64,000 bases of DNA from Sulfuricella denitrificans (GTDB lineage: Bacteria; Pseudomonadota; Gammaproteobacteria; Burkholderiales; Sulfuricellaceae), in assembly GCA_002632355.1 (NCBI GenBank), contig NSJJ01000004.1, positions 124,001 through 188,000 of the forward strand, in the 5' to 3' direction. Position 1 is the stretch's first letter, and every line of letters starts with the position of its first letter. Positions 30,554 to 64,000 of this stretch are shown piece after piece. The notes under the pieces are model-generated. The model saw only the letters and a program-made list of their open reading frames with translations, had not been told where the DNA came from and ran no database searches. A program made the translations under genes and the position numbers.

Positions 30554-32125
30554 ATGACCCTCCAAGAAGAAATCCAGCGCCGCCGCACCTTCGCCATCAT
30601 CTCCCACCCCGACGCAGGTAAAACCACGCTGACCGAAAAAATGCTGTGGTTCGGTGGCGCGATCCAGATGGCGGGTGCTGTGCGGGCGCGCAAGGCCGAT
30701 CGCCATGCCACCAGCGACTGGATGGAACTGGAGAAGCAGCGCGGAATTTCGGTGACCTCTTCGGTCATGCAATTTCCCTACCGCGAATGCATGATCAACC
30801 TGCTTGACACCCCCGGCCACGAGGACTTTTCCGAGGATACCTACCGCACCCTGACGGCAGTGGATTCGGCGGTCATGGTGATCGACTCGGTCAACGGGGT
30901 GGAAGCACAGACCATCAAGCTGCTCAATGTCTGCCGCCTGCGCGATACGCCCATCATTACCTTCATCAACAAGCTCGACCGCGAAGGCAAGGAACCCATC
31001 GAGCTGCTGGATGAAATCGAGTCGGTACTGCAGATCCAGTGTGCCCCCATGACCTGGCCGATCGGCATGGGCAAGCGTTTCCGCGGCACCTATCATCTCT
31101 ACAACGACACCGTCTCAGTATTCGACCCCAAGGCCGAGAAAGGCACGGCAGAAATCATACAGGGGCTGGACAATCCGCGCCTCGACGAACTGATCGGCGA
31201 CCAGGCTGATGAACTGCGCATCGATATCGAACTGGTTCGCGGCGCTTCGCATACCTTTGACCGCGAGGCTTACCTGAGCGGCAAGCAGTCACCGGTGTTT
31301 TTCGGCTCGGCCATGAACAACTTCGGCGTTCAGTCCCTGCTCGATGCCATTGTCGAACTCTCCCCTGCACCATTGCATCGCCCGGCTCGAACACGCAGCG
31401 TCGAGCCCGACGAACCAAAATTTTCCGGCTTCGTATTCAAGATCCAGGCCAACATGGACCCCAAGCACCGCGACCGTATCGCCTTCATCCGCATCTGCTC
31501 CGGTCGCTTCGACCGGGGCATGAAAATCAAGCAGGTATCGAGCGGCAAGCAGGTCACCGTGGGCAATGCCATCACCTTCATGGCACAGGACAGAAACGCT
31601 GCTGATGAGGCCTTTGCCGGCGATATCATCGGCGTCCCCAATCACGGCACCATCAGGCTGGGAGACACATTCACTGAAGGCGAGGACCTCAAGTTCACGG
31701 GGATTCCCTCTTTCGCGCCCGAAATTTTTCGACGCGCGCAAATCAGGAATCCTTTGAAAACGAAGCAATTGCAGAAGGGATTGCAACAACTCGCGGAAGA
31801 AGGGGCCACACAACTCTTTCGCCCCATCAACTCCAATGATCTGGTGCTCGGTGCGGTCGGCATGCTGCAGTTCGACGTGGTCGCGCATCGTTTGCAATAC
31901 GAATATGGTGTGGATGTCCAGTTCGAACACTTCGATGTTGCCACGGCACGCTGGTTACGTGGCAGCGATCTGGAACTGAAAAAACTGGTGGATAAGCACG
32001 GCTTCAATGTCGCCCTTGACGGCGCCAACGAGTATGTCTACCTGGCGCCCAACCGGGTCAATCTGAATCTGGCTCAGGAGCGTTTTCCGGAAATCAAATT
32101 TCTGGAAACACGGGAAATCGCTTAG
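30554..32125 (+). CDS. prfC: Peptide chain release factor 3
   Basis: 523 residues. G-domain motifs [29 protein letters not shown] and NKLDRE are in place, followed by domain II ([25 protein letters not shown]) and the RF3 C-terminal domain. RF3 is a GTPase that recycles RF1/RF2 from the ribosome after peptide release. It follows kup by 64 bp and has its own likely promoter. Confidence 0.97.
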
Positions 32126-32179
32126 AAAACAGGTGTTCAGAACCGGATTTTCAGTTTCCTGCCCCATGCAATAAAAATA

Positions 32180-32203
32180 CCGGCTGCGAAAATCGGAAGC
32201 CGG
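32180..32203. terminator. Possible terminator between prfC and the TusE/DsrC-like gene
   Basis: CCGGCT and AGCCGG pair over a 12-nt loop, with an A-rich stretch on one side and CTTTA on the other. It lies between two converging genes. The stem is short, so this is tentative. Confidence 0.35.
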
Positions 32204-32286
32204 CTTTATCTGTTCAACAACACCTTTCCGGATTCGCATGAGCGCCCGCTCCGGCACCCTGCGTTCCGGCACATCTCAATTCAATT

Positions 32287-32637
32287 CTAGTGCTCGCCCT
32301 TGGTCCGGAGCAAGCCTGCCATGCGGTTGCCCTGTTTCTGCGGCCCGCCTTTTGGGAAGATTGCGTGCAGGTAGTGGTTGTTCCCCCGCTCTTTTCCCCA
32401 TGCTTCGGAAAAGTGCTTGATCATATTTCGTACCTGAGCCTGGACCGAATGCTCATGGTAATACTCCCGCAAATAGCGAATCACATCCCAATGTTCCTGA
32501 GTCAACTCAAGTTCTTCCTGCCTGGCCAGGGCGATTGCATAGTCCTCCGACCATTCGTCGAGATTCTTGATGTAGCCTTCCGAATCCGTCTCGATTTCAC
32601 TGCCATTAACGAGCAGATGTCTGGTATGAAACCCCAT
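32287..32637 (-). CDS. TusE/DsrC-family protein lacking all cysteines
   Basis: 116 residues. The fold signature is clear: the N-terminal INGSEIETDSEGYI-like strand, LDEWSEDYAIALARQE, LTQEHWDVIRYLREYYHEH and the C-terminal arm FPKGGPQKQGNRMAGL. TusE and DsrC pass sulfur on a penultimate cysteine (DsrC has a second one about ten residues earlier). Here the C-terminus reads GEH where GCV is expected, and the protein has no cysteine at all, so it cannot carry persulfide. It may be a regulatory or binding homologue. An AGGAG site 8 bp before the ATG at 32637 sets the start. The gene is downstream of narI and a cytochrome c on the same strand. Confidence 0.85.
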   Translation of the reverse strand: MGFHTRHLLVNGSEIETDSEGYIKNLDEWSEDYAIALARQEELELTQEHWDVIRYLREYYHEHSVQAQVRNMIKHFSEAWGKERGNNHYLHAIFPKGGPQKQGNRMAGLLRTKGEH

Positions 32638-32763
32638 ATGATTCACTCCTTACTGATTTAGTACAAAATAAAATCCGCAAAACACTCCAAAACAGCCGAC
32701 ACGAGGGTGGGGTGAAGCCGTGGCGTAATTCACCTTTTTCAGATTCAGGTAAATAAAAACGCA

Positions 32764-33183
32764 TTATTTCAGTGACAAAATATAGCGGGTCAGTATTCTT
32801 TTTTTCTCATCACCAAGGTCCGGATATCCAGGCATCGCTATTTTCCCCCAAACTCCGCTGCCGCCATTGGTAATCTTGTTCATGATTTTGTCTTCAGCTG
32901 AAGCATCCTTGCGGTAGACCGCGGCAACATCCTTCCACGCAGGGCCAAGAAGCTTCTTTTCGATGGAATGACAGGCAAAACAGCCGATATCCTTCGCAAG
33001 TGCTGTAAATTCTTCGCGGGAAACAACTGGGTTTGCCGAATTGTCCGCAGATGCTTGTATCGCGATCGGAACCGCGACTACAGGCGCCTTGGGCTGCTGC
33101 CTGGACTCCCCGGGCTGACAACCGTACAGCAGGCCAAATAAGGGCACAATAAAACTTGTCAGCACGATCCTTTGTGTCTGCAT
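32764..33183 (-). CDS. Small class I cytochrome c, probable lipoprotein
   Basis: 139 residues. An N-terminal hydrophobic leader ends at Cys22 (LLYGC, an imperfect lipobox), followed by a Pro/Ala-rich spacer. The cytochrome domain has the haem-attachment site CFACH (68-72), GPAWKDVAAVY and the likely distal ligand Met117 in IAMPGYP, as in cytochromes c551/c5. It should carry electrons in the periplasm. It is encoded 108 bp after narI on the same strand; its electron partner is unknown, because NarGHI itself takes electrons from quinol. Confidence 0.88.
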   Translation of the reverse strand: MQTQRIVLTSFIVPLFGLLYGCQPGESRQQPKAPVVAVPIAIQASADNSANPVVSREEFTALAKDIGCFACHSIEKKLLGPAWKDVAAVYRKDASAEDKIMNKITNGGSGVWGKIAMPGYPDLGDEKKRILTRYILSLK

Positions 33184-33203
33184 CTTTTCTCTTCGCCAAC
33201 ATC

Positions 33204-33225
33204 AAGGTAACAGTGCACTGACCTT
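33204..33225. repeat. Interrupted palindrome upstream of the cytochrome c gene
   Basis: AAGGT-AA-CAGTG / CACTG-ACCTT reads as an inverted repeat around the perfect 10-bp palindrome CAGTGCACTG (33211-33220), with two unpaired bases on one arm. It lies about 20-40 bp before the cytochrome c start codon, in the gap after narI. Confidence 0.3.
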
Positions 33226-33291
33226 TCATCAGGGATGACAGGACAGCGCACCGAATACTATCAACGCAACCGGAAACTCAACAGCAACCGG

Positions 33292-34005
33292 TTAGCGGCT
33301 CTGGTACTTCAATTTCTTGCTACGCACGATCTGGTAGGAACGTGCCAGGTAACCGAACGGCGCACTCCAGACATGAACCAGACGGGTAAACGGGAAAATC
33401 AGGAATACCGTCATGCCGAAGAACACGTGCAGCTTGAAGATGGTATCAACGCCTTCCAGATAAGCTGGATTCGGGTACAGGTACATAATGCTCTGAATCC
33501 ACTCAGCCATCGCTGTCACCACGCGCGGGTCACCATGGCCTGCATGGCCGATGGACACAGGAATGGTGGTCAGTCCCAGAATCAGCGTAGCCATAATCCA
33601 GCCAAGAACGAACTTGTCGGATGCACGGCTGGTGACGGAAACGCGCCGGTTGCTGAAACGCCTGATGAGGAGATTGCCGCCGCCGATCAGGGCCATAACT
33701 CCAAAAAAAGACCCGAGAACAATCGCCATATACTGGTGCTGGATGTCGCCCATCACCATCAGAAACACACTATGCGGCGTCAACAAGCCCAGGAAGTGCC
33801 CGCCGAAAATTGCAAGCACGCCAATGTGAAACAGGTTGCTGGCCCAACGCATTCCCGCCGTTGAGAGCAGCTGACTGGACGCGCTGGTCCAGCCGTACTG
33901 TTCACGATCAAAACGCAACCAACTGCCGATCACGAAAACGCTGAGGCAGACATAGGGATAAATGCCAAACAGCAAATTATTCCAGGTAAAAATATCTTCG
34001 TTCAT
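33292..34005 (-). CDS. narI: Respiratory nitrate reductase gamma subunit (cytochrome b)
   Basis: 237 residues with five membrane segments. The two b-type haems are expected on histidines in NLFHIGVLAIFGGH (helix 2) and KLHVFFGMTVFLIFPFTRLVH (helix 5), all present. NarI anchors NarGH to the inner membrane, oxidises quinol at the periplasmic side and passes electrons inwards. A strong AGGAGG site precedes the ATG. Last of the core nar genes; gap to narJ is 11 bp. Confidence 0.97.
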   Translation of the reverse strand: MNEDIFTWNNLLFGIYPYVCLSVFVIGSWLRFDREQYGWTSASSQLLSTAGMRWASNLFHIGVLAIFGGHFLGLLTPHSVFLMVMGDIQHQYMAIVLGSFFGVMALIGGGNLLIRRFSNRRVSVTSRASDKFVLGWIMATLILGLTTIPVSIGHAGHGDPRVVTAMAEWIQSIMYLYPNPAYLEGVDTIFKLHVFFGMTVFLIFPFTRLVHVWSAPFGYLARSYQIVRSKKLKYQSR

Positions 34006-34016
34006 TTTATTCCTCC

Positions 34017-34541
34017 TTAAGCAGCAATACAGGCAGGTGTAGCGCGGTTCTTGATGATGGAAACCAGAGGCGCGTAAGGACTGTTGGCCTTGGTGAGATT
34101 TTCAGCCAAGACCGTCAGAACCTTGCTGGCATCGGACAAAAATGCTCTCGCCTCTTCATCTTCCTGCAATGCAACAAATTCCAGGATCAGCGGCAGATAG
34201 TCAGGCAACTCGTTGGTCATCTGCTTCACGCCGTAATCCTTATACAATTCACTGAGGTCGATCAGTGCCGGGCCACGGTTCTTGTCGTTATCATCACCGA
34301 AGAAATGATGCGTCAAGTGCAGGCTATGTTCAGGCGTGAGATCGAATGTTTTCACGTAATCCTCCTGGATTTCGATCGGGTCACCCTTCTCAAGCCAGGC
34401 CACAAACTTCTTCACTTCGGCCCATTCCACCACATCGGTATCGACCGTCTCATCCAGCAATTTATTGATCGCCGGGAGATTGTCGAACAGTTCCTGATCC
34501 GGATACTCCAGCAAAGCCGATAGAATTTTGTAGATTTGCAT
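34017..34541 (-). CDS. narJ: Nitrate reductase assembly chaperone NarJ
   Basis: 174 residues, all helical in character. MQIYKILSALLEYPDQELF opens the family, and TPEHSLHLTHHFFGDDNDKNRGPAL is the conserved central segment. NarJ is a TorD-family chaperone that holds apo-NarG until the molybdenum cofactor is inserted; it is not part of the final enzyme. The start at 34541 has a GGAG site; longer frames upstream run into narH. Confidence 0.95.
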   Translation of the reverse strand: MQIYKILSALLEYPDQELFDNLPAINKLLDETVDTDVVEWAEVKKFVAWLEKGDPIEIQEDYVKTFDLTPEHSLHLTHHFFGDDNDKNRGPALIDLSELYKDYGVKQMTNELPDYLPLILEFVALQEDEEARAFLSDASKVLTVLAENLTKANSPYAPLVSIIKNRATPACIAA

Positions 34542-34551
34542 GATTTCTCCT

Positions 34552-36099
34552 TTATTCCTTGTCAGCAGATGGCGCCAGTTCGGCAGGTTCCATCGACTCC
34601 TTGCGGCGCCGCGGGAACATGGAAATCTTGCTGATACCGACTGCAGAGCTATTGCCGAAAGTAAAGCCGTTCTGACCCTGGAAGCCGTGCGCATCATCAA
34701 GACGCTCTTCTTCATGACCGGTCGGAATCACATAGCGGTCTTCGTAGTTGGCGATGGCCAGGTAACGGTACATTTCCTTGGCCTGATCTTCAGTGATACC
34801 CGCCGCATCCAGTGGCCGTGTATCAGCCACACCTTCAACATGCACCGAACGCTGGTAGCTGCGCATGGCGATGAGGCGGTTCAATGCGCTGACGATCGGT
34901 GCTTCCTTGCCAGCGGTAAGCAGGTTGGCCAGGTACTTGACCGGTGTACGCATCGTTCCGGCTTGTGGGATCGCACCATCTGGTCCGACGGGCAGGTTGC
35001 CCTGGTCGATCTGGGACTGCACCGGAGAAAGCGGTGGAACGTACCAGACCATCGGCAGAGTACGGAACTCGGGGTGCATCGGGAATGCAATTTTCCAGTC
35101 AATTGCCATCTTGTAGATCGGCGATTTCTGCGCTGCGATGATCCAGTCTTCGTTGATGCCTTCTGCACGGGCAGCAGCAATAACAGCTGGGTCATTCGGA
35201 TCGAGGAATATCTTGCATTGCGCTTCGTACAGATCCTGCTCGTTGCTGACGCTGGCCAGTTCTTCGATGCGGTCGGCATCGTACAGCATGATGCCGTTGT
35301 AGCGAATACGCCCAACGCAGGATTCGGAGCAAACCGTCGGCATGCCTGATTCAACACGTGGGTAGCAGGCGATACACTTCTCTGCCTTGCCGGATTCCCA
35401 GTTATAGTAGACCTTCTTGTAAGGGCATGCGCTCATGCAGAAACGCCATCCGCGGCACTTGTCCTGATCGACCAGCACGATGCCATCCTCTTCACGCTTG
35501 TAGAGCGAACCGGACGGGCAGGCCGCAACGCAGGCCGGGTTCAGGCAATGGTTGCAGATGCGTGGCAAATAAAGGTTAAAGGTGTTCTCGAACTGGCCAT
35601 ACATCTCTTTCTGGATGTTGTCCATATTCTTGTCCACGCTGCGCTTGGCATATTCGCCAGCCAGATCGTCTTCCCAGTTCGGGCCCCAGGTGATTTTCTC
35701 CATGGGGTCGCCTGTGATCATCGACAGAGGGCGCGCTGTCGGGGCCGCTTCAGACAACGGCGCATTCTGCAAACGCGCGTAGTTGTAGGTGAACGGCTCA
35801 TAGTAGTCATCGATTTCCGGAAGATCCGGGTTGGCGAAGATGTTCAGCAGTTTCGAGGTTCTTCCGCCTGACTTGAGCTCGAGTTTGCCGCCCGCCAGCT
35901 TCCAGCCACCTTTCCATTTTTCCTGGTTTTCCCATTGCTTGGGATAGCCGATACCGGGCTTGGATTCGACGTTATTGAACCAGACGTATTCCACGCCCTT
36001 GCGGTTGGTCCAGGTGTTTTTGCACGTTACCGAGCAGGTGTGGCAACCGATACACTTGTCCAGATTGAAGACAAACGCAAATTGTGCACGTATTTTCAT
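34552..36099 (-). CDS. narH: Respiratory nitrate reductase beta subunit
   Basis: 515 residues. Four cysteine groups bind iron-sulfur clusters: CIGCHTCSVTC near residue 16; CNHCLNPACVAACP and CRGWRFCMSACP near residues 180-220, and CIACYPRVESGMPTVCSESC near 245. The Trp in CRGW marks the site of the 3Fe-4S cluster, as known for NarH. The protein transfers electrons from NarI haem to NarG on the cytoplasmic side. An AGGAG site precedes the ATG. Confidence 0.97.
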   Translation of the reverse strand: MKIRAQFAFVFNLDKCIGCHTCSVTCKNTWTNRKGVEYVWFNNVESKPGIGYPKQWENQEKWKGGWKLAGGKLELKSGGRTSKLLNIFANPDLPEIDDYYEPFTYNYARLQNAPLSEAAPTARPLSMITGDPMEKITWGPNWEDDLAGEYAKRSVDKNMDNIQKEMYGQFENTFNLYLPRICNHCLNPACVAACPSGSLYKREEDGIVLVDQDKCRGWRFCMSACPYKKVYYNWESGKAEKCIACYPRVESGMPTVCSESCVGRIRYNGIMLYDADRIEELASVSNEQDLYEAQCKIFLDPNDPAVIAAARAEGINEDWIIAAQKSPIYKMAIDWKIAFPMHPEFRTLPMVWYVPPLSPVQSQIDQGNLPVGPDGAIPQAGTMRTPVKYLANLLTAGKEAPIVSALNRLIAMRSYQRSVHVEGVADTRPLDAAGITEDQAKEMYRYLAIANYEDRYVIPTGHEEERLDDAHGFQGQNGFTFGNSSAVGISKISMFPRRRKESMEPAELAPSADKE

Positions 36100-36133: not shown

Positions 36134-39100
36134 TCAACGCTTGCCGATACCGGGCGGGTTGAGCTGCGCTTCGCGTTCCGGAGTCAGCGGCCGTTCCAGC
36201 CAGTCGATGTCTTTGTCCGCCACCTTGCGCATGATGACCTCGGTGTCGCGGTTGCTACCCACCGTACCGTAATAGTTGAAGCTGTAGGCCAGCTGCACAT
36301 AGCCACCAATCATGTTGGTCGGCTTCATGACGACGCGCGTCACCGAGTTCAGAATGCCGCCGCGCTTGCCGGTGGCATTCGATCCGGGCACGTTCACAAT
36401 CTTCTCCTGCGCGTGGTACATCATGGCCACACCGCGTGAAATGCGCTGCGAAACGACTGCACGCGCCACCGTTGCGCCGTTGTGGTTGATCGCCTCGACC
36501 CAGTCGTTATCCTCGATACCGGCTGCCTTGGCATCGGCTTCTGAAATCCAGACGTAGGGGCCGCCACGAAACAGGGTCAGCATGCGCAGGTTGTCCTGGT
36601 AAGTTGAATGGATACCCCACTTGGAATGCGGTGTAATCCATTTCAGCTTGATGTGCTTCTCCGCCAGGATGCTCGGCGAGAGCTTGTCGAACGAATGCAT
36701 GTTCTGTGGTGGTTTATGCACACAGAAGCCTTCACCGAAGTCCAGCATCCATTCGTGATCCTGATAGAAATGGGCGCGTCCGGTCAGGGTGCGGAACGGA
36801 ATGTGCTCATGGATATTGGTGTAGCAAGAGGTGTAAGACACCGTCTCGGATTCAATACCTGACCAGGTTGGTGCGGTGATGATCTTGCGCGGCTGTACCT
36901 GGATGTCAGCGAACGTGATCTTGTCCTCGTGACGGGCCGAATACAGGTGATGGTGGTCGATACCCGTCTTCTTGGAAAGCGCGCTCCATGCTTTGTGAGC
37001 GACTTCACCACAGGTCTCCGGTGCCATGCGCAACACGGAATCGCACACCTTGATGTCTTCCTCGAGAGAAGGCATGCCAAAGGATACGCCTGGTACTTTT
37101 ACCGTACCGTTCATCACCTTCAACTGGTCATATTCCATCTCGGTATTCCAGTCGAGACCCTTGACGTTGTTGCCGATCTTGGTCATCAACGGGCCGATCG
37201 CGATGTACTTCTTGTAGGTGTCGGCAAAGTTGCGCTCAACCACCTTGAGCAGCGGCATGGTTTTGCCGGGAACCGGATCGCATTCGCCATTTTTCCAGTC
37301 CTTGACTTCGCCAAAGGGCTGGGCCATTTCGAACGGCGAATCGTGCTGCATCGGCAGAGCAACGATGTCCTTGCGGGTGCCGAGGTGCTTTTCGGCCAGT
37401 TTCGAGAAGGTCTCGGCCAGGCTCTTGAATATCTGCCAGTCGGACTTGGACTGCCAGCCGGGCGACACCGCTTCCGACAGCGGATGCATGAAGGGGTGCA
37501 TGTCGGTGGTGTTGAGGTCGTTCTTCTCATACCAGGTTGCGGTCGGCAGAACGATATCGGAGTACGCACCGGTGGAGTTCAGGCGGAAGTTGATATCGAC
37601 CATCAGGTCCAGCTTGCCGATCGGCGCCTCGTCGTGCCACTTGATCAGCTTGTTCACGCTGCCAGCGCCGGACTCCTGAAGCACGCCGTTCTGCGTCCCG
37701 AGCAGGTGCTTGAGAAAATACTCGTGTCCCTTGGATGAGGAGCCGATCAGGTTGGCGCGCCAGACGAACAGGTTGCGCGGCCAGTTGACCGGATTGTCCG
37801 GGTCGGCGAACGCCACATCCAGCGAACCGTCCTTGAGCTTGCCGATCACGTGCTGGGCGATGCCAGCCTCGTCGGTGGCACCGGATTTTTCGGCTTCGGA
37901 GACCAGGTCGAGCGGGTTGGTGTTCCAGTGTGGCGCAGACGGCAGCCAGCCCATGCGGACTGCGGCGACATTATAGTCGGCAATCGAGTAGCCCTTGTAT
38001 TTGCCCTTGCCGGCAGGCGAGGTGAGATCGTCGCCGCGCAGGGTTTCATAACGCCACTGGTCGGTGTGGAAATACCAGAAGGAGGTGGAATTCATGTGAC
38101 GTGGTGGACGCTGCCAGTCGAGAGCGAAAGCGATCGGTGCCCAGCCAGCTTGCGGACGCAGCTTTTCCTGACCCACATAGTGTGCCCAGCCACCGCCGGA
38201 CTGACCCACGCAACCGCAGATATGCAGCAGGTTCATCACACCGCGGTACATCATGTCGTTGTGGTACCAGTGGTTGATCGCGGCCCCCATGATCACCATG
38301 GACTTGCCGTGCGTCTTGGATGCGTTGTAGGCAAATTCGCGTCCGGTACGTTCGATATCCGCGGCTTTTACGCCGGTTACCTTTTCTGCCCAGGCGGGCG
38401 TATAGGCCACATTGGCATCTTTGTAATTCGTGGTGACGTTGCCGCCGCCCAGACCACGATCGATACCATACTGCGCTACTTGCATGTCAAAAACGGAAGC
38501 AACGAGGGCTTCTTCGCCATTGGCCAGCTTCAGCTTGCGAACAGGCACATTGCGGTACAGCAGATCGCCTTCGCCCGGCTCGAAGTGCGGAAAACCGACA
38601 GAAGCCACGGCATCCTTGCTGTCTATGCAAGACAGTTCAGCCGTTATTTCCTGCTGAGAAGCCGCATTCTTGGGCAACAAATTCCATTTGCCTTCCTCGC
38701 CCCAGCGGAAACCGATCGAACCGTTCGGCACCACGAAAGATTTGCTCTTCTCGTCAAATACAATCGTTTTCCAGTCAGGATTATTGGTCTCGCCCAAGGC
38801 GCCGTCCAGATCGGAGGCACGCAGGCAGCGGTCGGACACATAGCCATCGCCATGCTTGCGCAGCATCACCTGAATCGGCAGGTCTGTGTATTTGCGCGCA
38901 TATTCGGAAAAATAAGGATCCTGCTTGTCGATGTAAAATTCTTTCAGTGCCACGTGGCCCATTGCCAGGAAGGCAGCAGTATCGCTACCCGGATTGACCG
39001 GCATCCACAGGTCGGAAGCCTTGCAATACTCGGCATAATCGGGCGCCATCGAGATGACCTTCGCACCCTTGTAGCGCACTTCGGAAACGAAGTGGGCATC

Positions 39101-39889
39101 AGGGGTACGTGTGGTCGGCAAACTGGAGCCGCAGACGATGATATAAGTCGAGTTGTACCAGTCAGCAGATTCCGGCACGTCGGTCTGCTCGCCCCAGGTC
39201 TGTGGGGAAGCGGCAGGCAGGTCGCAATACCAGTCGTAGAAGGAACCGCAGGCACCGCCGATCAGGGACAGATAGCGCGCACCCGATGCGTAGGAAATCT
39301 GGGACATCGCAGGAATTGGCGAGAAGCCGAAAATGCGGTCAGGACCATATTTCTTGATGGTGTAGACGTTGGCTGCAGCAACGATTTCCTTGACCTCTTC
39401 CCAATTGGCGCGAACGAAGCCACCCAGGCCGCGCACGGCGGTGTATTGCTTGCGCTTGTTTTCGTCAGCCTGAATCGCGGCCCATGCTTCGACCGGGTCC
39501 TTGCCTGACTTGCGCTCGGCACGGTACAGATTGAGCAGGCGACCGCGAATCAGCGGGTACTTGATCCGCTGCGGGCTGTACAGATACCAGGAAAATGAGG
39601 CGCCACGCTGACAACCGCGCGGCTCATGGTCAGGCAAGTCTTCGCGGGTGCGCGGATAGTCAGTTTGCTGCATTTCAAAGGCAACCAGACCATTCTTGAC
39701 GAAAATCTTCCACGAACAACCGCCCGTGCAGTTTACGCCGTGCGTGGAACGAACCACCTTGTCGTGCGCCCAGCGATTGCGGTAGGCATCTTCCCACTGA
39801 CGATCTTCATTCGTGACGATGCCGTGGTTATTGGAGAAAGTCTCCTTGATCTTTTCAAAAAACTTAAGACGGTCGAGAAAATGACTCAT
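36134..39889 (-). CDS. narG: Respiratory nitrate reductase alpha subunit
   Basis: 1251 residues, full length. The N-terminal 4Fe-4S cluster (FS0) ligands are His50, Cys54, Cys58 and Cys93 (STHGVNCTGGC, RGCQRGA). GSFYDWYCDLPAASPQTWGEQTD and TRTPDAHFVSEVRYKG are conserved around the molybdenum bis-MGD cofactor. NarG reduces nitrate to nitrite in the cytoplasm as part of proton-motive anaerobic respiration. There is no twin-arginine leader of the exported type; MSHFLDRLKFF is the usual vestigial N-terminus. The gene is preceded by AGGAG. Confidence 0.98.
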   Translation of the reverse strand: MSHFLDRLKFFEKIKETFSNNHGIVTNEDRQWEDAYRNRWAHDKVVRSTHGVNCTGGCSWKIFVKNGLVAFEMQQTDYPRTREDLPDHEPRGCQRGASFSWYLYSPQRIKYPLIRGRLLNLYRAERKSGKDPVEAWAAIQADENKRKQYTAVRGLGGFVRANWEEVKEIVAAANVYTIKKYGPDRIFGFSPIPAMSQISYASGARYLSLIGGACGSFYDWYCDLPAASPQTWGEQTDVPESADWYNSTYIIVCGSSLPTTRTPDAHFVSEVRYKGAKVISMAPDYAEYCKASDLWMPVNPGSDTAAFLAMGHVALKEFYIDKQDPYFSEYARKYTDLPIQVMLRKHGDGYVSDRCLRASDLDGALGETNNPDWKTIVFDEKSKSFVVPNGSIGFRWGEEGKWNLLPKNAASQQEITAELSCIDSKDAVASVGFPHFEPGEGDLLYRNVPVRKLKLANGEEALVASVFDMQVAQYGIDRGLGGGNVTTNYKDANVAYTPAWAEKVTGVKAADIERTGREFAYNASKTHGKSMVIMGAAINHWYHNDMMYRGVMNLLHICGCVGQSGGGWAHYVGQEKLRPQAGWAPIAFALDWQRPPRHMNSTSFWYFHTDQWRYETLRGDDLTSPAGKGKYKGYSIADYNVAAVRMGWLPSAPHWNTNPLDLVSEAEKSGATDEAGIAQHVIGKLKDGSLDVAFADPDNPVNWPRNLFVWRANLIGSSSKGHEYFLKHLLGTQNGVLQESGAGSVNKLIKWHDEAPIGKLDLMVDINFRLNSTGAYSDIVLPTATWYEKNDLNTTDMHPFMHPLSEAVSPGWQSKSDWQIFKSLAETFSKLAEKHLGTRKDIVALPMQHDSPFEMAQPFGEVKDWKNGECDPVPGKTMPLLKVVERNFADTYKKYIAIGPLMTKIGNNVKGLDWNTEMEYDQLKVMNGTVKVPGVSFGMPSLEEDIKVCDSVLRMAPETCGEVAHKAWSALSKKTGIDHHHLYSARHEDKITFADIQVQPRKIITAPTWSGIESETVSYTSCYTNIHEHIPFRTLTGRAHFYQDHEWMLDFGEGFCVHKPPQNMHSFDKLSPSILAEKHIKLKWITPHSKWGIHSTYQDNLRMLTLFRGGPYVWISEADAKAAGIEDNDWVEAINHNGATVARAVVSQRISRGVAMMYHAQEKIVNVPGSNATGKRGGILNSVTRVVMKPTNMIGGYVQLAYSFNYYGTVGSNRDTEVIMRKVADKDIDWLERPLTPEREAQLNPPGIGKR

Positions 39890-39928: not shown

Positions 39929-41542
39929 TTACGGGTTCTTGATCTCGGAACCACTACGCAGGTAGAACCACCAGTTCAGAATGAGGCACAGTGCATAGAA
40001 AATTGCGAAACCATACATCGCATTTTCTGGCGTTCCCGCCTTGATCTGGCCACCAATCACCACTGGTGCAATAAAGGCACCGTAGGCTGCCACAGCAGAA
40101 GTCCAGCCCAGTACCGGTCCAGCCTGCACGCGATCGAAAATCACGCCGACGGAGCGGAATGTTGAACCGTTACCGATTCCGGATGCAGCAAACAGCACCA
40201 CGAAGATCACCATGAAAATGGTGAAATACTGTTCCGGTGTGGCAGAGTTATAGGCCAGGAACATCACATAACCCGCTGCTGCAGAAGCACCCACCATCAC
40301 AACAGAAATCAGTTGAGTCACGATGGAACCGCCAACTTTATCGGAAATCCAGCCGCCAACCGGGCGAATCAGGGCGCCGACAAATGGGCCAATCCAGGCA
40401 TAGGTCAGCGCAGAAGGCGCATTGGGGTTTTTCAGAACGTGTGTCATCAGGCCGGTAGCCGGATCAACTACGTGCTGGAAGCCGAAAATCACTGTAATAG
40501 CGAGAGGCACAGCCATCGAAAAGCCGATGAAAGAACCGAATGTCAGCACATACAGCACGGTCAGCGACCAGGTATGCTTGTTCTTGAAAATGGCAAACTG
40601 CTTCTCGATATTGGCTTTCATTTCACCAAAAGCCGCGAGCTTCATGACAATCAGAGTTGCAACAATGATCAGCGGCAAAGCCACCCACATATTCAGGAGA
40701 CCCAGGCCGGTAGGTGCAGGAAGGTAAAGGTAAAGGCCTACTGCGGCGGTCATGAAAGCCAGGCCATACAGCCAGAGAATTTTAATAAAGGCCGAAATCG
40801 TAGAGCCGATATTCGGAGAAATCGGCATCAGGTTATTCATGCCGAAGAAACCCAGGACACCCAGGGGAATCAGTGCCAGCAGCCACACAAAACCGGCGTT
40901 CTGGATATAGGTTGGGGTGCCGGCGAGAATCTTGCCGAGAATCCAGCCACTATCCTTCATCAACTCCATGGAACCGCCCGCGAATGCGCCGAAAATGCCT
41001 GCAGTCATCACCAGAGGAATAAGAATCTGCATGGTAGTCACGCCGAAGTTACCCAGACCAGCATTCAGACCCAGAGCGGTTCCTTGCAGACGCTTGGGGT
41101 AGAAAGTGCTGATATTGGACATCGAGCAGGCAAAGTTGCCGCCACCGACACCGGACAACAGTGCCAGCAACTGGAATACCCACAACGGAGTGCTCTTGTC
41201 CTGTAGCGCAATACCCGCGCCAAAAGCAGGAATCATCAGCAATGCAGTGGTCAGGAAAATCGTGTTGCGGCCTCCAGCGATACGGATAAAGAAGGAGGAA
41301 GGAATGCGCAATGTCGCGCCTGCCAGTCCGGCAATCGCGGTCAGGTTAAACAACTGGTCCTTGGTGAAAGGAAAACCGAGATTGAGCATCTGTACAGTCA
41401 AGATGCCCCACATCAGCCAGATGGCGAAACCCATGAGCAGGCTGGGGATAGAAATCCACAGGTTGCGGCTGGCAACTTTCTTCCCTGTAGATTCCCAGAA
41501 CGCGTTGTCTTCCACGTTCCAGTCCTTGATATTTATCGACAT
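39929..41542 (-). CDS. narK2: Nitrate/nitrite transporter, NarK2-type
   Basis: 537 residues with about 12 membrane segments of the major facilitator superfamily. AGLAGATLRIPSSFFIRIAGGRN and GGGNFACSMSNISTFYPK are nitrate-signature regions with conserved Arg and Gly-rich helices. In the narK1K2GHJI order known from Pseudomonas, the second transporter acts in nitrate/nitrite exchange, which also removes nitrite. The longer-than-average length comes from extended loops. An AGGAGG-like site precedes the ATG; gap to narG is 39 bp. Confidence 0.9.
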   Translation of the reverse strand: MSINIKDWNVEDNAFWESTGKKVASRNLWISIPSLLMGFAIWLMWGILTVQMLNLGFPFTKDQLFNLTAIAGLAGATLRIPSSFFIRIAGGRNTIFLTTALLMIPAFGAGIALQDKSTPLWVFQLLALLSGVGGGNFACSMSNISTFYPKRLQGTALGLNAGLGNFGVTTMQILIPLVMTAGIFGAFAGGSMELMKDSGWILGKILAGTPTYIQNAGFVWLLALIPLGVLGFFGMNNLMPISPNIGSTISAFIKILWLYGLAFMTAAVGLYLYLPAPTGLGLLNMWVALPLIIVATLIVMKLAAFGEMKANIEKQFAIFKNKHTWSLTVLYVLTFGSFIGFSMAVPLAITVIFGFQHVVDPATGLMTHVLKNPNAPSALTYAWIGPFVGALIRPVGGWISDKVGGSIVTQLISVVMVGASAAAGYVMFLAYNSATPEQYFTIFMVIFVVLFAASGIGNGSTFRSVGVIFDRVQAGPVLGWTSAVAAYGAFIAPVVIGGQIKAGTPENAMYGFAIFYALCLILNWWFYLRSGSEIKNP

Positions 41543-41583: not shown

Positions 41584-42846
41584 TTATTCCAGCGTATCTG
41601 CCTGCTGAAGCTTGCGGTGACGTTTTGCATCCAGTGGTCTTACTTCAGTCCAGTACATCCACATCAGGGAAACCCAAACCACACCGAACATCAGCATGAA
41701 TGCAGAAGAACGGATTCCGGTCAGATCCACCAGCGCACCGAACATGATAGGCATCAGGAATCCGCCCATACCCCCGGCCAGTCCGACCACGCCAGAAATC
41801 ACGCCGATGTTCTTGGGATAGTCGTCAGAGATGTACTTGAACACCGAGGCCTTGCCGATTGCAAAGGCAATTCCCAGGGTAAACATGATGATGGTGAAAG
41901 CAATCGGCCCGAGGCCCACGTGGTAAGTCGATGGTCCGGTTACGGTATGAATGGTGAATTCGGTCTGCGGATAAGACAGGAAGAAGAGGCACACCAGAGA
42001 AACCCACAACACCCACCAGGTAATGGAATGCGCGCCAAACTTATCTGAGAAATAGCCACCCACGGCCCGCAGCACACCGCCAGGAACGCTGAATGCGGCC
42101 GCCATCAGAGCTGCATGCGTGAGATCGAAGTGGTATTCGGTCACATAGTATTTGGTCATCCACAGGGCAAGGGCGACATAGCCGCCGAACACAATGGAAT
42201 AATACTGGCTGTAGCGCCACACCCTGGGGTCCTTCAAAGCGGCAAGCTGCTCCCGTACAGTAACCGCCTTACCCACTTTGTGTTCTGGATCGGTAAACGA
42301 AAAAAACCAGAACAGGATTGCTGTAATCAGCATGAGAACTGCATACATCTGCGGCACCATCGCCCAGCCATAAGCCACTACGATGGAAGGCGCTACCAGC
42401 TTGGTAATCGCCGCGCCGGTATTGCCGGCACCGAAGATACCCATGGCCGTCCCCTGCTTCTGCTTGGGAAACCAGCGCGCACAGTAGGAAATACCGACGG
42501 TGAACGAACCGCCAGCCACGCCCACGAACAGGCCGGTTACCAGAAACTGCCAGAACGCTGTAGCCTGGGAAATCATGTAAATCGGGATGATGGTGGATAG
42601 CATCAGAACAAAAAACACGATGCGCCCGCCGAATTTATCGGTCCACATGCCCAAGGGTAGGCGGATCAGCGAGCCGGTCAGCACCGGTGTCGCCACCAGG
42701 AGGCCGAACTGGGTTTCATTGAGATCCAGGATCTTCTTGATGGGGATGCCGATCACGGCGAACATCATCCAGATCATGAAGCAGACGGTGAATGCAATCG
42801 TACTGGCAGTCACCACGGACCAAGCTTTGTATTCCTGCGAAGCCAT
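41584..42846 (-). CDS. narK1: Nitrate transporter, NarK1-type
   Basis: 420 residues and about 12 membrane segments. LIRLPLGMWTDKFGGR and GVAGGSFTVGISYCARWFPKQKQGTAMGIFGAGNTGAA are the family signatures, the latter containing the nitrate signature. Type I NarK proteins are thought to be proton-nitrate symporters that start nitrate respiration. The start at 42846 is chosen because GGGAGGA lies just upstream; an in-frame ATG 13 codons earlier lacks support. First gene of narK1K2GHJI. Confidence 0.92.
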   Translation of the reverse strand: MASQEYKAWSVVTASTIAFTVCFMIWMMFAVIGIPIKKILDLNETQFGLLVATPVLTGSLIRLPLGMWTDKFGGRIVFFVLMLSTIIPIYMISQATAFWQFLVTGLFVGVAGGSFTVGISYCARWFPKQKQGTAMGIFGAGNTGAAITKLVAPSIVVAYGWAMVPQMYAVLMLITAILFWFFSFTDPEHKVGKAVTVREQLAALKDPRVWRYSQYYSIVFGGYVALALWMTKYYVTEYHFDLTHAALMAAAFSVPGGVLRAVGGYFSDKFGAHSITWWVLWVSLVCLFFLSYPQTEFTIHTVTGPSTYHVGLGPIAFTIIMFTLGIAFAIGKASVFKYISDDYPKNIGVISGVVGLAGGMGGFLMPIMFGALVDLTGIRSSAFMLMFGVVWVSLMWMYWTEVRPLDAKRHRKLQQADTLE

Positions 42847-42892
42847 GCTCTCCTCCCTTTCAGTTCTGACAGGTTTTTTTGTCACGCTGCCA

Positions 42893-43080: not shown

Positions 43081-43755
43081 TCACTGTTCTTCTTTTAGGG
43101 CCAGCCCATGTTCCACGGCATATACGGCCGCCTGAACCCGGCTGGTCAGATTGAGCTTCTTGAGTATGCTCTGGACGTGAATTTTTACCGTGCTTTCAGC
43201 CACGTTCAGCACGCGTGCCATTTCCTTGTTGCTGGCCCCCCTGGCAAGCAGGGTAATGATTTCCCTCTCACGGGGGGTGAGTTTTTCCCGGTCAGCCTCA
43301 ACAAGCGGCACCGGACCCTCTGCCTTGGGCTGGGTACGCAGGCCCTCCACCAGCTTCCCGGTCATCAAGGGGGAAATAATGGATTCTCCGCGCGCCACGC
43401 TCTGTATGGCATTCACCAGGTAATCGGTATCGATATTCTTGAGCAGATAACCTGCCGCACCTGCGCGCAGGCAGTCGACCAGATCCTCCGCATCTTCCGA
43501 CACCGTGAGCATGAGCACCCGCGTGCCCGGCGCATCCTCCGAAATCAGCCGGACTGCCTCACGACCGCTTATCCCGGGCATGTGGAGATCCAGCAGTACC
43601 ACATCCGGTTTTAGAGACATGGCGCGTTTCACGCCCTCAAGTCCGTCTCCCGCTTCGCCCACCACCTCGAAATCCTTCTGCCGCTGCAGCAGCAGTTTTA
43701 TTCCGCTGCGGAACAGGGTATGGTCGTCCACGATGAGCACTCTGATCGGGTTCAT
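43081..43755 (-). CDS. narL: Nitrate/nitrite response regulator NarL
   Basis: 224 residues. The receiver domain carries the phosphorylation site Asp in VVLLDLHMPG (near residue 57) and the conserved Lys in YLLKNI (near residue 107). The C-terminal LuxR-type helix-turn-helix (LTPREREIITLLARGASNKEMARVLNVAESTVKIHV) binds DNA. It should activate the nar genes 234 bp downstream when nitrate is sensed. The start overlaps the narX stop (ATGA). Confidence 0.95.
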   Translation of the reverse strand: MNPIRVLIVDDHTLFRSGIKLLLQRQKDFEVVGEAGDGLEGVKRAMSLKPDVVLLDLHMPGISGREAVRLISEDAPGTRVLMLTVSEDAEDLVDCLRAGAAGYLLKNIDTDYLVNAIQSVARGESIISPLMTGKLVEGLRTQPKAEGPVPLVEADREKLTPREREIITLLARGASNKEMARVLNVAESTVKIHVQSILKKLNLTSRVQAAVYAVEHGLALKEEQ

Positions 43756-45683
43756 GCGGCTTCCTTGTATGATTTGTCCAGAGTCAGTCTGATTTCCGTG
43801 CCTGTTCCTACCCTGGAAACAATACCGAGCTGACCTCCAATACGATGGGCTCGTTCCTTCATGATACTGATGCCAACATGTGAGTCACCGGGCTGTAGCT
43901 CCGGGTTGAAGCCATGACCATTGTCACGTACCGAAATAACGAAATCGCCATTTCGTGAAATCTCAACAGTCACATTACTGGCGGCCGCATGTTTTCTGAT
44001 ATTTGACAGTGCCTCCTGAACAATATGCAACACCTGTGTCTCGTTGCTGGTATCGAGCGGCGCGCCCTCGCCGCTAATGTTCAATGTTGCCTTGATTCCG
44101 GTCTGGCCTTCGAATTTCTCCAGCGAACTCCGGATCGCCCCTTCCAGATCGGACTGGTGTACGCGCGTACGGAAATGAACCAGCAATTCGCGCACATCGT
44201 CGTAACTTTCCTGCACACCTTCACGAATATGCGAAAGCCCCTCTACAACTTCACTGTCATTCCCCTTGCGGAAAGAGTCTTCCAGCATCTGTATCTGGAT
44301 GTTGAGGAAAGCCAAACCCTGGGCGATGCTGTCATGCAGTTCCTGAGCCAGCAGATTGCGTTCTTCCGAGATTGCCATTTCCTTCTCGCGCGAAACCAGG
44401 CGCTGCCCCTCGATTGCCGCTCCGAGATGCTGGCCTACGGCTTCCAGCAAATGCACTTCCATCGGCGTGAAACCGCGCGCCTTAAGGAAATAAAGGTTAA
44501 AAATCCCGATCAGGCGTTTTTTTACCTTGATGGTAAAGACAGACACCGAGCGATATCCTTCGTCCCGGCAGTTATACATCAGCTTGAGTTCTGTCGGCTG
44601 ATGCAGATCGAAAAAGGCCGGGGTCTGCGAGCTCGCTGCTCCGCCGCACAGGCATTCGCCCATATTGAGACAGGATTCTTTCTGCGCAAAATCATCGCTC
44701 AGGCCTTCTGTCACAACCAGGTGAATTTTCTGTGTACTGGGATCAACCAGTCTTACTGCCCCACCCTCGGCATTGAACTGGGTCATCAGTCGCCGGATGA
44801 AGCGCCGGGAAAGCTCCTCCACCGCAGCCGGTTCGTTGAGCAGGGCGGTCACTTCATACAGCAAGCCCAGTTCCTGGTTTTTTTCCTCCAGACTGTGCGT
44901 CTTCGTTTCCACTCGCTGCTCCAGGGTGTTGTATAAGCCCTCCAGATGATCCGCCATCTGATTGAATCCGAGCGCCAAAGCTCCGAACTCGTCACGGTTT
45001 TCCACAGGCACGCGCACACTGAAATCCTCTCCCGCCATGCGCTGTATGCCTTCCTGCAACTTGGTGGCAGGACGAATTATCAGCAGATACATGAGGAATA
45101 TGAGAATCACGGTTCCCACGATGGCCAGCATCACCAGACCCAGCTGAATCGATCGCAACAAGCTGGTTTTGTAGGCATTATCACGTTCGACGCTCAGCAC
45201 CAGACCATTGACCAGGCCCACATAATTTTCCACCGAGGGGCGGATTTCCTTTAACAGGCGGTGACGCGCCTCGGGTTCATGACTGTTCAGCACGCCCTCC
45301 AGCAATGGACGGATATGCCCTTGCCATTCCAGCCTGAGGTTCGCCATCTGACGCCGTACCCCCACGTCCTTTGGCAACAGCAGAGGGCGTGAAGGATCAC
45401 CCTGTTCAAGATCCATCAGGGTTTTTTCGAAGGCGGCCATTTCCCGGTGCACCTCGCCTTCCATACTCTCCTGATCCAGGCCGAAATATATGTTGTACGT
45501 CAGGAGATAAGCCAATCTGTAGGAACGCATACGTTCGCTACCGGCATCATTGATCGCTGCCGCACCGCCCTCCAGTTGCCAGGAAACATACAGCGTCAGG
45601 CTGATGGCAATCAGGGCAACGCAGAAAAAGGCGAGCAGAATACTCACCAGTTTGGAACTTAGTGTCTGGAAAGATTTAATCAT
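43752..45683 (-). CDS. narX: Nitrate/nitrite sensor histidine kinase NarX
   Basis: About 643 residues. Two membrane helices flank a periplasmic helical sensor domain with GSERMRSYRLAYLLTYN, the region that binds nitrate in this family. A HAMP domain (about 205-260), a GAF-like domain with several cysteines (CLNMGECLCGG), a HisKA_3 domain with ELHDSIAQGLAF (phospho-His) and a HATPase domain follow. It phosphorylates NarL. The start at MIKSFQ is the family-like one; the ribosome site is weak, and the open frame extends 38 codons upstream. Confidence 0.93.
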   Translation of the reverse strand: MIKSFQTLSSKLVSILLAFFCVALIAISLTLYVSWQLEGGAAAINDAGSERMRSYRLAYLLTYNIYFGLDQESMEGEVHREMAAFEKTLMDLEQGDPSRPLLLPKDVGVRRQMANLRLEWQGHIRPLLEGVLNSHEPEARHRLLKEIRPSVENYVGLVNGLVLSVERDNAYKTSLLRSIQLGLVMLAIVGTVILIFLMYLLIIRPATKLQEGIQRMAGEDFSVRVPVENRDEFGALALGFNQMADHLEGLYNTLEQRVETKTHSLEEKNQELGLLYEVTALLNEPAAVEELSRRFIRRLMTQFNAEGGAVRLVDPSTQKIHLVVTEGLSDDFAQKESCLNMGECLCGGAASSQTPAFFDLHQPTELKLMYNCRDEGYRSVSVFTIKVKKRLIGIFNLYFLKARGFTPMEVHLLEAVGQHLGAAIEGQRLVSREKEMAISEERNLLAQELHDSIAQGLAFLNIQIQMLEDSFRKGNDSEVVEGLSHIREGVQESYDDVRELLVHFRTRVHQSDLEGAIRSSLEKFEGQTGIKATLNISGEGAPLDTSNETQVLHIVQEALSNIRKHAAASNVTVEISRNGDFVISVRDNGHGFNPELQPGDSHVGISIMKERAHRIGGQLGIVSRVGTGTEIRLTLDKSYKEAA

Positions 45684-45760
45684 CGGGTATGTCGGGTGCT
45701 GTTTGCATGCCGACCATGTTGCCCAACATGAAGGCGGCTGTAAAGAATTGCAGGGGCCCC

Positions 45761-45778
45761 GGGGTTTTATACAACCCC
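45761..45778. repeat. GC-clamped inverted repeat between lpdA and narX
   Basis: GGGGTT (45761-45766) and AACCCC (45773-45778) pair around TTATAC. In the minus-strand transcript it lies just after lpdA, but no T run follows, so it is not a standard terminator. On the minus strand the loop contains GTATAA, which could alternatively be part of a narX promoter. Confidence 0.3.
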
Positions 45779-45806
45779 CCCCGGATCCTGCTGCCAACCA
45801 GCGCCG

Positions 45807-62253: not shown

Positions 62254-62811
62254 TCAGCGTGTCCCCATCAGGCGCGAGAAAAACTCGCGCCGCGACACTT
62301 CCTTCTGCCAGCCGCAGTCGCGCTGCTGCTCTTGCATCACGCGGTCGCGAGTTTTGATCACCTCGCCCCAGTCCGAAAAAACCGCATCGGCCGAGTCGTA
62401 ACGTTCCATGGATTGCACCAGCGGCTGCAAAAGAAAATGCCCCAGTTCGGGCAGGTAATTGAGATGCGCATTCTGGCGGCCGCCCAGAATGGGGAAATCG
62501 AGCAGCGGGCCAATGACGACAAACGGTTCGGCAGCCCGCCCGGCGGCACTCCACCCGTCCGGAATGCTCAATCCGGGGTCGCGCTCCGGCAGGAATACCC
62601 GCGCCATCATCCACGGCGTCAGCAGCAGGAACACGCACCATCCGTCGCTGCGGCGGAATGCGCGAACCTCCACCGGCAAATCGTGATTGACCAACCACTC
62701 GCCGGAAAACTGCTGCCGGTAGATCGCGCCAAAGCACCGGCTCACTGCGGCGATGACCTGCTGATCCTCCATACCGGCCAGCACGCTTGCCTGCCAGGCG
62801 GCTTCAGTCAT
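62254..62811 (-). CDS. HybE-like chaperone domain protein with C-terminal twin-arginine motif
   Basis: 185 residues, starting at an ATG that overlaps the torD-like stop by 8 bp. The segment [19 protein letters not shown] (about 57-75), then [16 protein letters not shown] and [17 protein letters not shown], resemble HybE, the hydrogenase assembly chaperone that binds Tat leaders. The last residues read SRREFFSRL (173-181), close to the twin-arginine consensus SRRxFLK but at the wrong end of the protein. Function is inferred: quality control of an exported redox enzyme together with the TorD-like protein. No hydrogenase gene is visible. Confidence 0.6.
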
Positions 62812-63343
62812 GGAACAGTCCTCTGATTTCATGACCGAGCTGCCGGTAAAGTTCGAGCCGTCCCTCTTCGCCCAGCGTTGCGCCAAAACGCGGCGCCCAC
62901 ATGGCCAGATGATCCGCCCATAACTCCCGCAGCAGTTCCGAGCTATGCGAGCACTGCTGCTCCTGCAGCCAGGCGGCGCACTCCAGCATGGTGCCGAGAT
63001 AATCCGTCGGCGCACCATCGGCCTGCAAGCCGGCACGGCGATAGAGGTCGCCGAGGTGCTCGCTGGCCGCACCGAACATCATGCCGCCGAGGAACGCCGA
63101 TTCGAACGGCGGACAGGCGGTTTTCGGGTGGCCGGAAATAAACAGGCGCGTATGCTCCGCCTGCCATTCCTCGAGCGGAAGATTGTCCAGTTCCGCCAGC
63201 GCCTGATGCAACCAGGCGTGATCCCCGGCCAGTTCGCGCAGCACTTCGAGCGAATCGCCGTCCGGGCTGGCCAGCAGCCCTGCAAGCAGGCGCAAAGCTT
63301 CAGGCGAGACGCCGCTTGTTTTCACCTCACCAGGGATAGGCAT
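62804..63343 (-). CDS. TorD/DmsD-family molybdoenzyme chaperone
   Basis: 179 residues, helical. The family core is visible in LPLEEWQAEHTRLFISGHPKTACPPFESAFLGGMMFG (about 58-95) and the conserved PTDYLGTMLECAAWL (about 117-130). Such chaperones bind the twin-arginine leader and the cofactor site of a molybdenum enzyme before export. Its start overlaps the end of the NrfD-type gene; the ATG at 63343 has a GGGGG stretch upstream and is chosen over 63355. It is translationally coupled to the HybE-like gene. Confidence 0.85.
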   Translation of the reverse strand: MPIPGEVKTSGVSPEALRLLAGLLASPDGDSLEVLRELAGDHAWLHQALAELDNLPLEEWQAEHTRLFISGHPKTACPPFESAFLGGMMFGAASEHLGDLYRRAGLQADGAPTDYLGTMLECAAWLQEQQCSHSSELLRELWADHLAMWAPRFGATLGEEGRLELYRQLGHEIRGLFHD

Positions 63344-64000
63344 AGACCCCCGCATACATGAAATAGTGGCGCAGCATGTAGCCGCCGATCAGCACCAGCA
63401 CCGCCGCCGCCACGGTGGGGAAGCGGCTGCCCCAGCCCTTGGTCACGCCCCTGAGTTCGAGCAGGAATGGCACGATCAGCCCGAACCCGATGAAGCCGAT
63501 CAGCCAGCCCATGTCGCCCCATAGCAACTGTGCGGAGCGGTAGCCGGATTCGGAGCCGGACAGGGTGTAGTTGAAGAATGAGAACAGGATCACCAGTTCC
63601 GTCGCGATCAGGATCACGTCGAAGCGCTCGTAGCGATGACGCAGATCGTCGTCGTTTTCATCGGTGATAAAGACATTGAGCAGCAGCAGCAGGTAGGCGA
63701 AGGCGGTTGAGAACGCCGACACCGTGAACAGCAGCGGCACGCCGGGATTGTGCCAGAGCGCCACCGCTGGGAAGGACTGGATCAGCAGGCCGGTGTACAC
63801 CGCTGTGCCGATGCCGTTGATCGAGGCCAGCCAGCCGACGATGCGGCGGCGCTTCATGCAGCAACTGGAAAGCCACTCCACCAGCGGCCACTGCAATACG
63901 CTGCGCACCAGCGGCAGGCGCTGGAACAAGGGCGTCTCGCGCATGTAGGGCAAGGCGTAGAGCATGCCCCACACCATCATCCACAGGATGAACTGGGTGC
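63327..64000 (-). CDS. NrfD/PsrC-type membrane subunit, C-terminal part (cut by window edge)
   Basis: At least 224 residues, open to the window edge, so the start is not seen. There are about six hydrophobic segments with charged loops, for example WLASINGIGTAVYTGLLIQSFPAVALWHNPGVPLLFTVSAF, which is typical of NrfD-type quinol-interacting subunits. In complexes of this kind (polysulfide, thiosulfate, tetrathionate, sulfite enzymes) it links the quinone pool to an iron-sulfur and a molybdenum subunit, expected just outside the window. The substrate cannot be told from this part. Confidence 0.88.
   Translation of the reverse strand, partial: TQFILWMMVWGMLYALPYMRETPLFQRLPLVRSVLQWPLVEWLSSCCMKRRRIVGWLASINGIGTAVYTGLLIQSFPAVALWHNPGVPLLFTVSAFSTAFAYLLLLLNVFITDENDDDLRHRYERFDVILIATELVILFSFFNYTLSGSESGYRSAQLLWGDMGWLIGFIGFGLIVPFLLELRGVTKGWGSRFPTVAAAVLVLIGGYMLRHYFMYAGVYAYPW

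Follow-up and report, generated by a model that had tools for sequence, protein, structure and literature searches.

A cysteine-free DsrC-like protein associated with nitrate reductase and reverse sulfite reductase genes in Sulfuricella denitrificans and other bacteria

The closest described counterparts of the protein analyzed here are DsrC, the two-cysteine carrier of the dissimilatory sulfite reductase (Dsr) pathway, and TusE, a one-cysteine sulfurtransferase of tRNA thiolation. A sulfonated cysteine of DsrC was proposed as the product generated on DsrAB, to be followed by formation of the arm disulfide, and the penultimate cysteine of Allochromatium vinosum DsrC is required for the binding of DsrEFH (PMC3397948). 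The sirohemes of DsrAB are partly exposed for the interaction with DsrC, and many sulfite reductases reduce nitrite as well (PMC10229431). DsrC homologues lacking cysteine are already known as a class. For the Solemya velum symbiont, the sections concerned of PMC4287430 report a DsrC-family homologue outside the dsr operon without both arm cysteines, as well as the lack of nar genes for assimilatory nitrate reduction; the corresponding part of PMC3368242 lists further DsrC paralogues of A. vinosum that lie outside the dsr operon and have no known role. Furthermore, SUP05 phages encode a DsrC relative (dsrC_1) with an altered arm, whose role is likewise unknown (PMC4164917). Here we analyzed a cysteine-free DsrC/TusE-like gene (referred to as GEH type, from its C-terminal residues) in 64,000 nucleotides of Sulfuricella denitrificans DNA (GCA_002632355.1, contig NSJJ01000004.1, positions 124,001-188,000); this whole stretch is called the window, and coordinates refer to it. 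Its orthologues form a separate clade, are found mostly in nar operons and occur almost only together with reverse-type dsrB, and the linkage of this protein type to both nitrate and sulfur metabolism is well supported.

The gene occupies positions 32287..32637 of the minus strand, from an ATG at 32637 to a stop codon ending at 32287, with AAGGAG, resembling a ribosome-binding site, just 5' of the start. The encoded protein of 116 amino acids contains no cysteine and ends with the arm GGPQKQGNRMAGLLRTKGEH (codons 32290..32349, minus strand). As judged from profiles and a predicted DsrC fold with C-terminal arm, it is a member of the DsrC/TusE/DsvC superfamily: it matched Pfam DsrC (PF04358) with 121.1 bits (3.6e-35; cut-off 24.9) and TIGR03342, the superfamily that it shares with TusE, with 108.8 bits (cut-off 53.5). 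The AlphaFold2 model has a mean predicted local distance difference test (pLDDT) score of 90.9, with low confidence for the last three arm residues, and its best solved match was A. vinosum DsrC (1yx3; TM-score 0.84, Z 17.4, root-mean-square deviation 2.0 over 112 residues, 42% identity). Thus, the original prediction, made from the letters of the DNA, of a DsrC/TusE-like protein ending in GEH, devoid of cysteine and otherwise well folded, proved correct. The likeness to DsrC extends over the whole fold and the arm motif G-P-x-K-Q-..-A-G. However, the protein is neither of the two described types. It lacks both cysteines of DsrC, CysB being replaced by Asn104 (codon 32326..32328, minus strand) and the penultimate CysA by Glu115 (codon 32293..32295, minus strand), and does not group with two-cysteine DsrC; in comparison with TusE, it reached 106.6 bits against a cut-off of 191 for the equivalog NF008562, and the single working penultimate cysteine is absent. 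On the opposite strand, a 123-amino-acid open reading frame (ORF; 32290-32661, plus strand) overlaps the gene almost completely, and similar ones are present in some relatives; such antisense ORFs are expected because the coding strand is conserved. A promoter and terminator scan of 32100-33400 gave nothing above shuffled sequences.

Searches with the window protein and with a 13-row profile yielded 46 GEH-type sequences from about 24 bacterial families. The clade was delimited by score (members at least 167 bits, best other sequences at most 125 bits, with no intermediates seen), and in the tree all 46 sequences grouped together with a support of 100/100, apart from two-cysteine DsrC. Asn occupies the CysB position and Glu the CysA position in 46/46 sequences; Gln66, Met72, His91, an inserted Gly97 and Lys113 are further fixed differences from DsrC. 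Indeed, the arm is the most conserved part of the protein: the residues of the pattern GGPQKQGNRxAGxx(R/K)TKGEH are nearly invariant, and mean pairwise identity is 0.88 in the last 20 residues vs 0.61 in the core. The terminal His116 is present in 45 of the 46 proteins, the remaining one ending in GEV. Eight possess a single cysteine outside the arm, whereas the last 30 residues are free of cysteine in all. One genome (G217) carries two copies, on contigs C55 and C2 (L124 and L127), one behind nar and the other elsewhere. No spread beyond the class was apparent: in a phylum-wide sample of 180 genomes, the S. denitrificans genome was the only one with a GEH-type score (next best at most 125 bits); four of the seven next-best loci, those whose tails were readable by pattern, encode ordinary cysteine-bearing DsrC/TusE.

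DsrC homologues without cysteines have been set aside before as incapable of DsrC function (the part of PMC4287430 dealing with such homologues), and a decaying TusE or DsrC copy, or an assembly error, might look similar. This explanation is extremely improbable here, as the same two replacements recur in 45 other sequences from about two dozen families, and the invariant arm residues are encoded by differing synonymous codons. A sequencing error or pseudogene was rejected on these grounds, and a phage origin was rejected as well, since the viral contigs searched encode no GEH-type relative, in which the group also differs from dsrC_1. The group with fixed Asn and Glu and its nar linkage are not described in the parts of PMC4287430 and PMC3368242 concerned with the S. 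velum and A. vinosum homologues. Similarly, we found no description of this nar- or dsr-linked GEH group in the freely readable literature searched, so that an earlier description may exist.

The GEH-type gene lies downstream of narI on the same strand in 21 loci, either directly or, in the family of S. denitrificans, behind a cytochrome c gene (in one of them, L039, the place behind nar follows from reference-based annotation). In nine loci, it is found in a dsr context, between dsrN and dsrR or in a like arrangement with a contig edge on one side or dsrR undetected. In six loci (L163, L169, L172, L173, L177, L178), it follows genes for a molybdoenzyme nearest to the formate dehydrogenase and NasC models, below the cut-offs of both, with a fused iron-sulfur protein and DmsC-type membrane protein and, in some cases, a NirD-like Rieske protein; two of the six were scanned against families and the others were assigned by similarity. 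This NasC-like set appears to form a complex and is possibly a membrane-attached cytoplasmic nitrate reductase, perhaps an undescribed one. Five genomes encode fused forms (L137, L142, L143, L146, L147; longer stretches L170, L175, L176, L179, L180), in which an N-terminal extension of ~110 residues, starting like MIAVRVFMKFTNEPLKRTPVVIQMDADG, precedes the GEH-type DsrC domain; this extension had no Pfam match in either of the two tested. Among the neighbours of the fused forms are genes for NnrS with an NsrR-like Rrf2 regulator, aprB, and genes for cytochrome d1-domain proteins and siroheme decarboxylases as in heme d1 synthesis. The remaining five loci have an unassigned context or the gene alone. 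In the clade tree, in which many forks are weak, the contexts switched repeatedly, the starred branches alone requiring at least three changes for nar and at least three for dsr.

The co-occurrence of the GEH type with other genes was assessed in two even samples (399 genomes of the order and 369 of the class). Reverse-type dsrB was present in 35 of 36 carriers compared with 202 of 767 genomes overall (hypergeometric p 1e-20). The only carrier without it in the samples is G592, an 81%-complete metagenome-assembled genome (MAG), whose genus-mate has dsrB. Among the carriers fetched from outside the samples, seven more genomes have dsrB, L037 adjoins dsrL-N, and only the genome of L041 is without dsrB. 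Within the dsrB genomes, narG was found in 23/35 carriers vs 41/167 non-carriers (odds ratio 5.9, p 5e-6). Neither p-value takes relatedness into account; with carriers spread over about 24 families, however, common ancestry within a few lineages does not account for them. A tie between nitrate respiration and sulfur metabolism, which the original prediction had suggested from the gene's place after nar and a cytochrome c, is thus strongly supported by the recurrence of nar linkage in 20 other loci, by the dsr-linked orthologues and by the near-obligate presence of dsrB. The location between dsrN and dsrR, the dependence on dsrB and the specific replacement of both cysteines by Asn and Glu had escaped that prediction.

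The position after narI in 21 loci and after the NasC-like set in six could also mean that the protein specifically serves molybdenum nitrate reductases of the cytoplasm, acting in their assembly, stability or electron transfer, with a tie to sulfur by descent only. We consider this unlikely, as almost all carriers possess dsrB, nine copies lie within the dsr operon, the 41 non-carriers with narG and dsrB do without the GEH type, and the nar operon already encodes the assembly chaperone NarJ.

Because the arm cysteines are missing, a role as sulfur carrier on the arm is excluded. As the arm is the most constrained part, is kept almost only together with DsrAB and is found to have switched between nar and dsr contexts, we favour a binding protein that uses the docking surface of DsrC: a paralogue without sulfur chemistry, its docking arm kept and re-specialized, which may gate or regulate the reverse sulfite reductase through partners of DsrC, most likely DsrAB (probability roughly 0.4). 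As its relatives retain both replacements and nearly always belong to sulfur oxidizers with the reverse Dsr pathway, the GEH protein probably links the use of nitrate with the oxidation of sulfur through binding of these partners and not by carrying sulfur. It would be produced alongside the cytoplasmic nitrate reductase, and its arm would enter the site of the DsrC arm, most likely in DsrAB next to siroheme, gating or regulating the enzyme while nitrite forms in the same compartment. Glu115, at the place of the oxidized, negatively charged sulfur of DsrC, could act as a locked mimic of the product state, and Asn104 would block the arm disulfide, so that the protein may bind without turnover. 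DsrAB is favoured as partner since its sirohemes are partly exposed to DsrC, Glu could mimic the sulfonated cysteine, and many sulfite reductases act on nitrite; both this choice and the capping of siroheme are inferred. The putative binding or regulatory role proposed in the original prediction agrees with the invariant arm.

Several points weigh against the gating of DsrAB. The siroheme step is drawn from what is known of the family, two carrier MAGs (G592 and G777) show no dsrB, and a narG match is absent in 12/35 carriers that have dsrB. Moreover, binding of DsrEFH needs the penultimate cysteine of DsrC (PMC3397948), and cysteine-free docking can therefore not be assumed for every partner. 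The latter also bears on the idea that the protein is a competitor or adaptor on another partner of DsrC (DsrMKJOP, DsrL, adenosine 5'-phosphosulfate reductase or a tRNA-thiolation protein) and leaves DsrAB untouched. DsrC itself interacts with several proteins, aprB lies next to one of the fused forms, and the arm region is conserved yet changed at His91, Gly97 and Lys113; nevertheless, the sequences give no specific partner signal, and we regard this idea as quite unlikely.

A more specific form of the favoured gating of DsrAB, which we hold to be rather doubtful, is a stoichiometric cap: the arm, resembling that of oxidized DsrC (Glu115, and His116 in nearly all members), would fill the DsrAB channel and cover or ligate the siroheme iron, protecting or pausing sulfur oxidation as nitrite and then nitric oxide arise. 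Nitrite is harmful to Dsr-based metabolism in sulfate reducers. Sediments, oxygen-minimum waters and wastewater are sites of denitrification driven by nitrate-using sulfur oxidizers, and how these bacteria run or pause a siroheme enzyme while producing nitrite in the cytoplasm seems to be an unsettled question. If true, the cap would amount to a novel form of cross-control between nitrogen and sulfur metabolism in sulfur oxidizers that denitrify. The GEH type, which accompanies reverse Dsr almost exclusively, lies mostly behind nar and has both sulfur residues swapped for fixed others, offers a single gene to delete and a biochemical test that is well defined.

In the window, the GEH-type gene is the last of a minus-strand run that also includes, in order of transcription, genes for a narK1-type transporter (41584..42885) and a narK2-type nitrate/nitrite transporter (39929..41542), both matching MFS_1 and the NarK family under the curated NarK cut-off, narG (36134..39889; 1251 amino acids, identified by sequence and by the same operon place as in relatives, without family scan), narH (34552..36099; TIGR01660), narJ (34017..34541; TIGR00684; start placed within a longer ORF, 34017-34715), narI (33292..34005; TIGR00351) and a cytochrome c (32764..33183; Pfam Cytochrom_C) with a lipoprotein-like start recognized by eye; narH, narJ and narI scored above the cut-offs. 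Preceding the operon on the same strand are a LuxR-type, NarL-like response regulator (43081..43755; Response_reg and GerE) and a NarX-like sensor histidine kinase (43752..45797; assigned by eye, start uncertain). The presence of this pair speaks against the GEH protein itself being a transcriptional regulator whose helical fold binds DNA near dsr or nar genes and tunes their expression. The original prediction had hinted at this with the label "RspA-like", which fits the window protein in the sense of a DsrC-family member without arm cysteines; the name "RspA" was not found for DsrC relatives in the literature searched. A regulator would not require cysteine, the gene adjoins both pathways, a putative function of DsrC in transcription regulation is cited in PMC7787665, and the model weakly resembles winged-helix regulators (Zur, 4mtd, Z 4.9; LexA, Z 3.4). 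These Z values are low, however, and conservation peaks in the docking arm and not in the presumed recognition helix, so that we see regulation of transcription as a possibility of lesser weight.

The S. denitrificans genome encodes seven DsrC-family proteins, one of which is a true two-cysteine DsrC within a dsr operon of the order dsrB-EFH-C-MKLJOP-N-R (all names except dsrB and dsrC were assigned by eye from order and sequence). With this operon and nar, the organism is genetically equipped for both reverse-Dsr sulfur oxidation and nitrate respiration. A second cysteine-free DsrC-like group, ending in (R/G)KGGY (L005 1489-1854 and others such as L034, L035, L046, L050, L057-L059, L073), shares a contig with two-cysteine dsrC in several loci, as it also does in the S. 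denitrificans genome. Other DsrC relatives (L003 1384-1797, L033, L072, L110) have kept CysB, lack the penultimate cysteine and end in GWSTG or AWSTG. At the edge of the window (62804-63980, minus strand), ORFs for a TorD-like chaperone and an NrfD-like membrane protein, recognized by eye only, suggest part of a further putative molybdoenzyme cluster.
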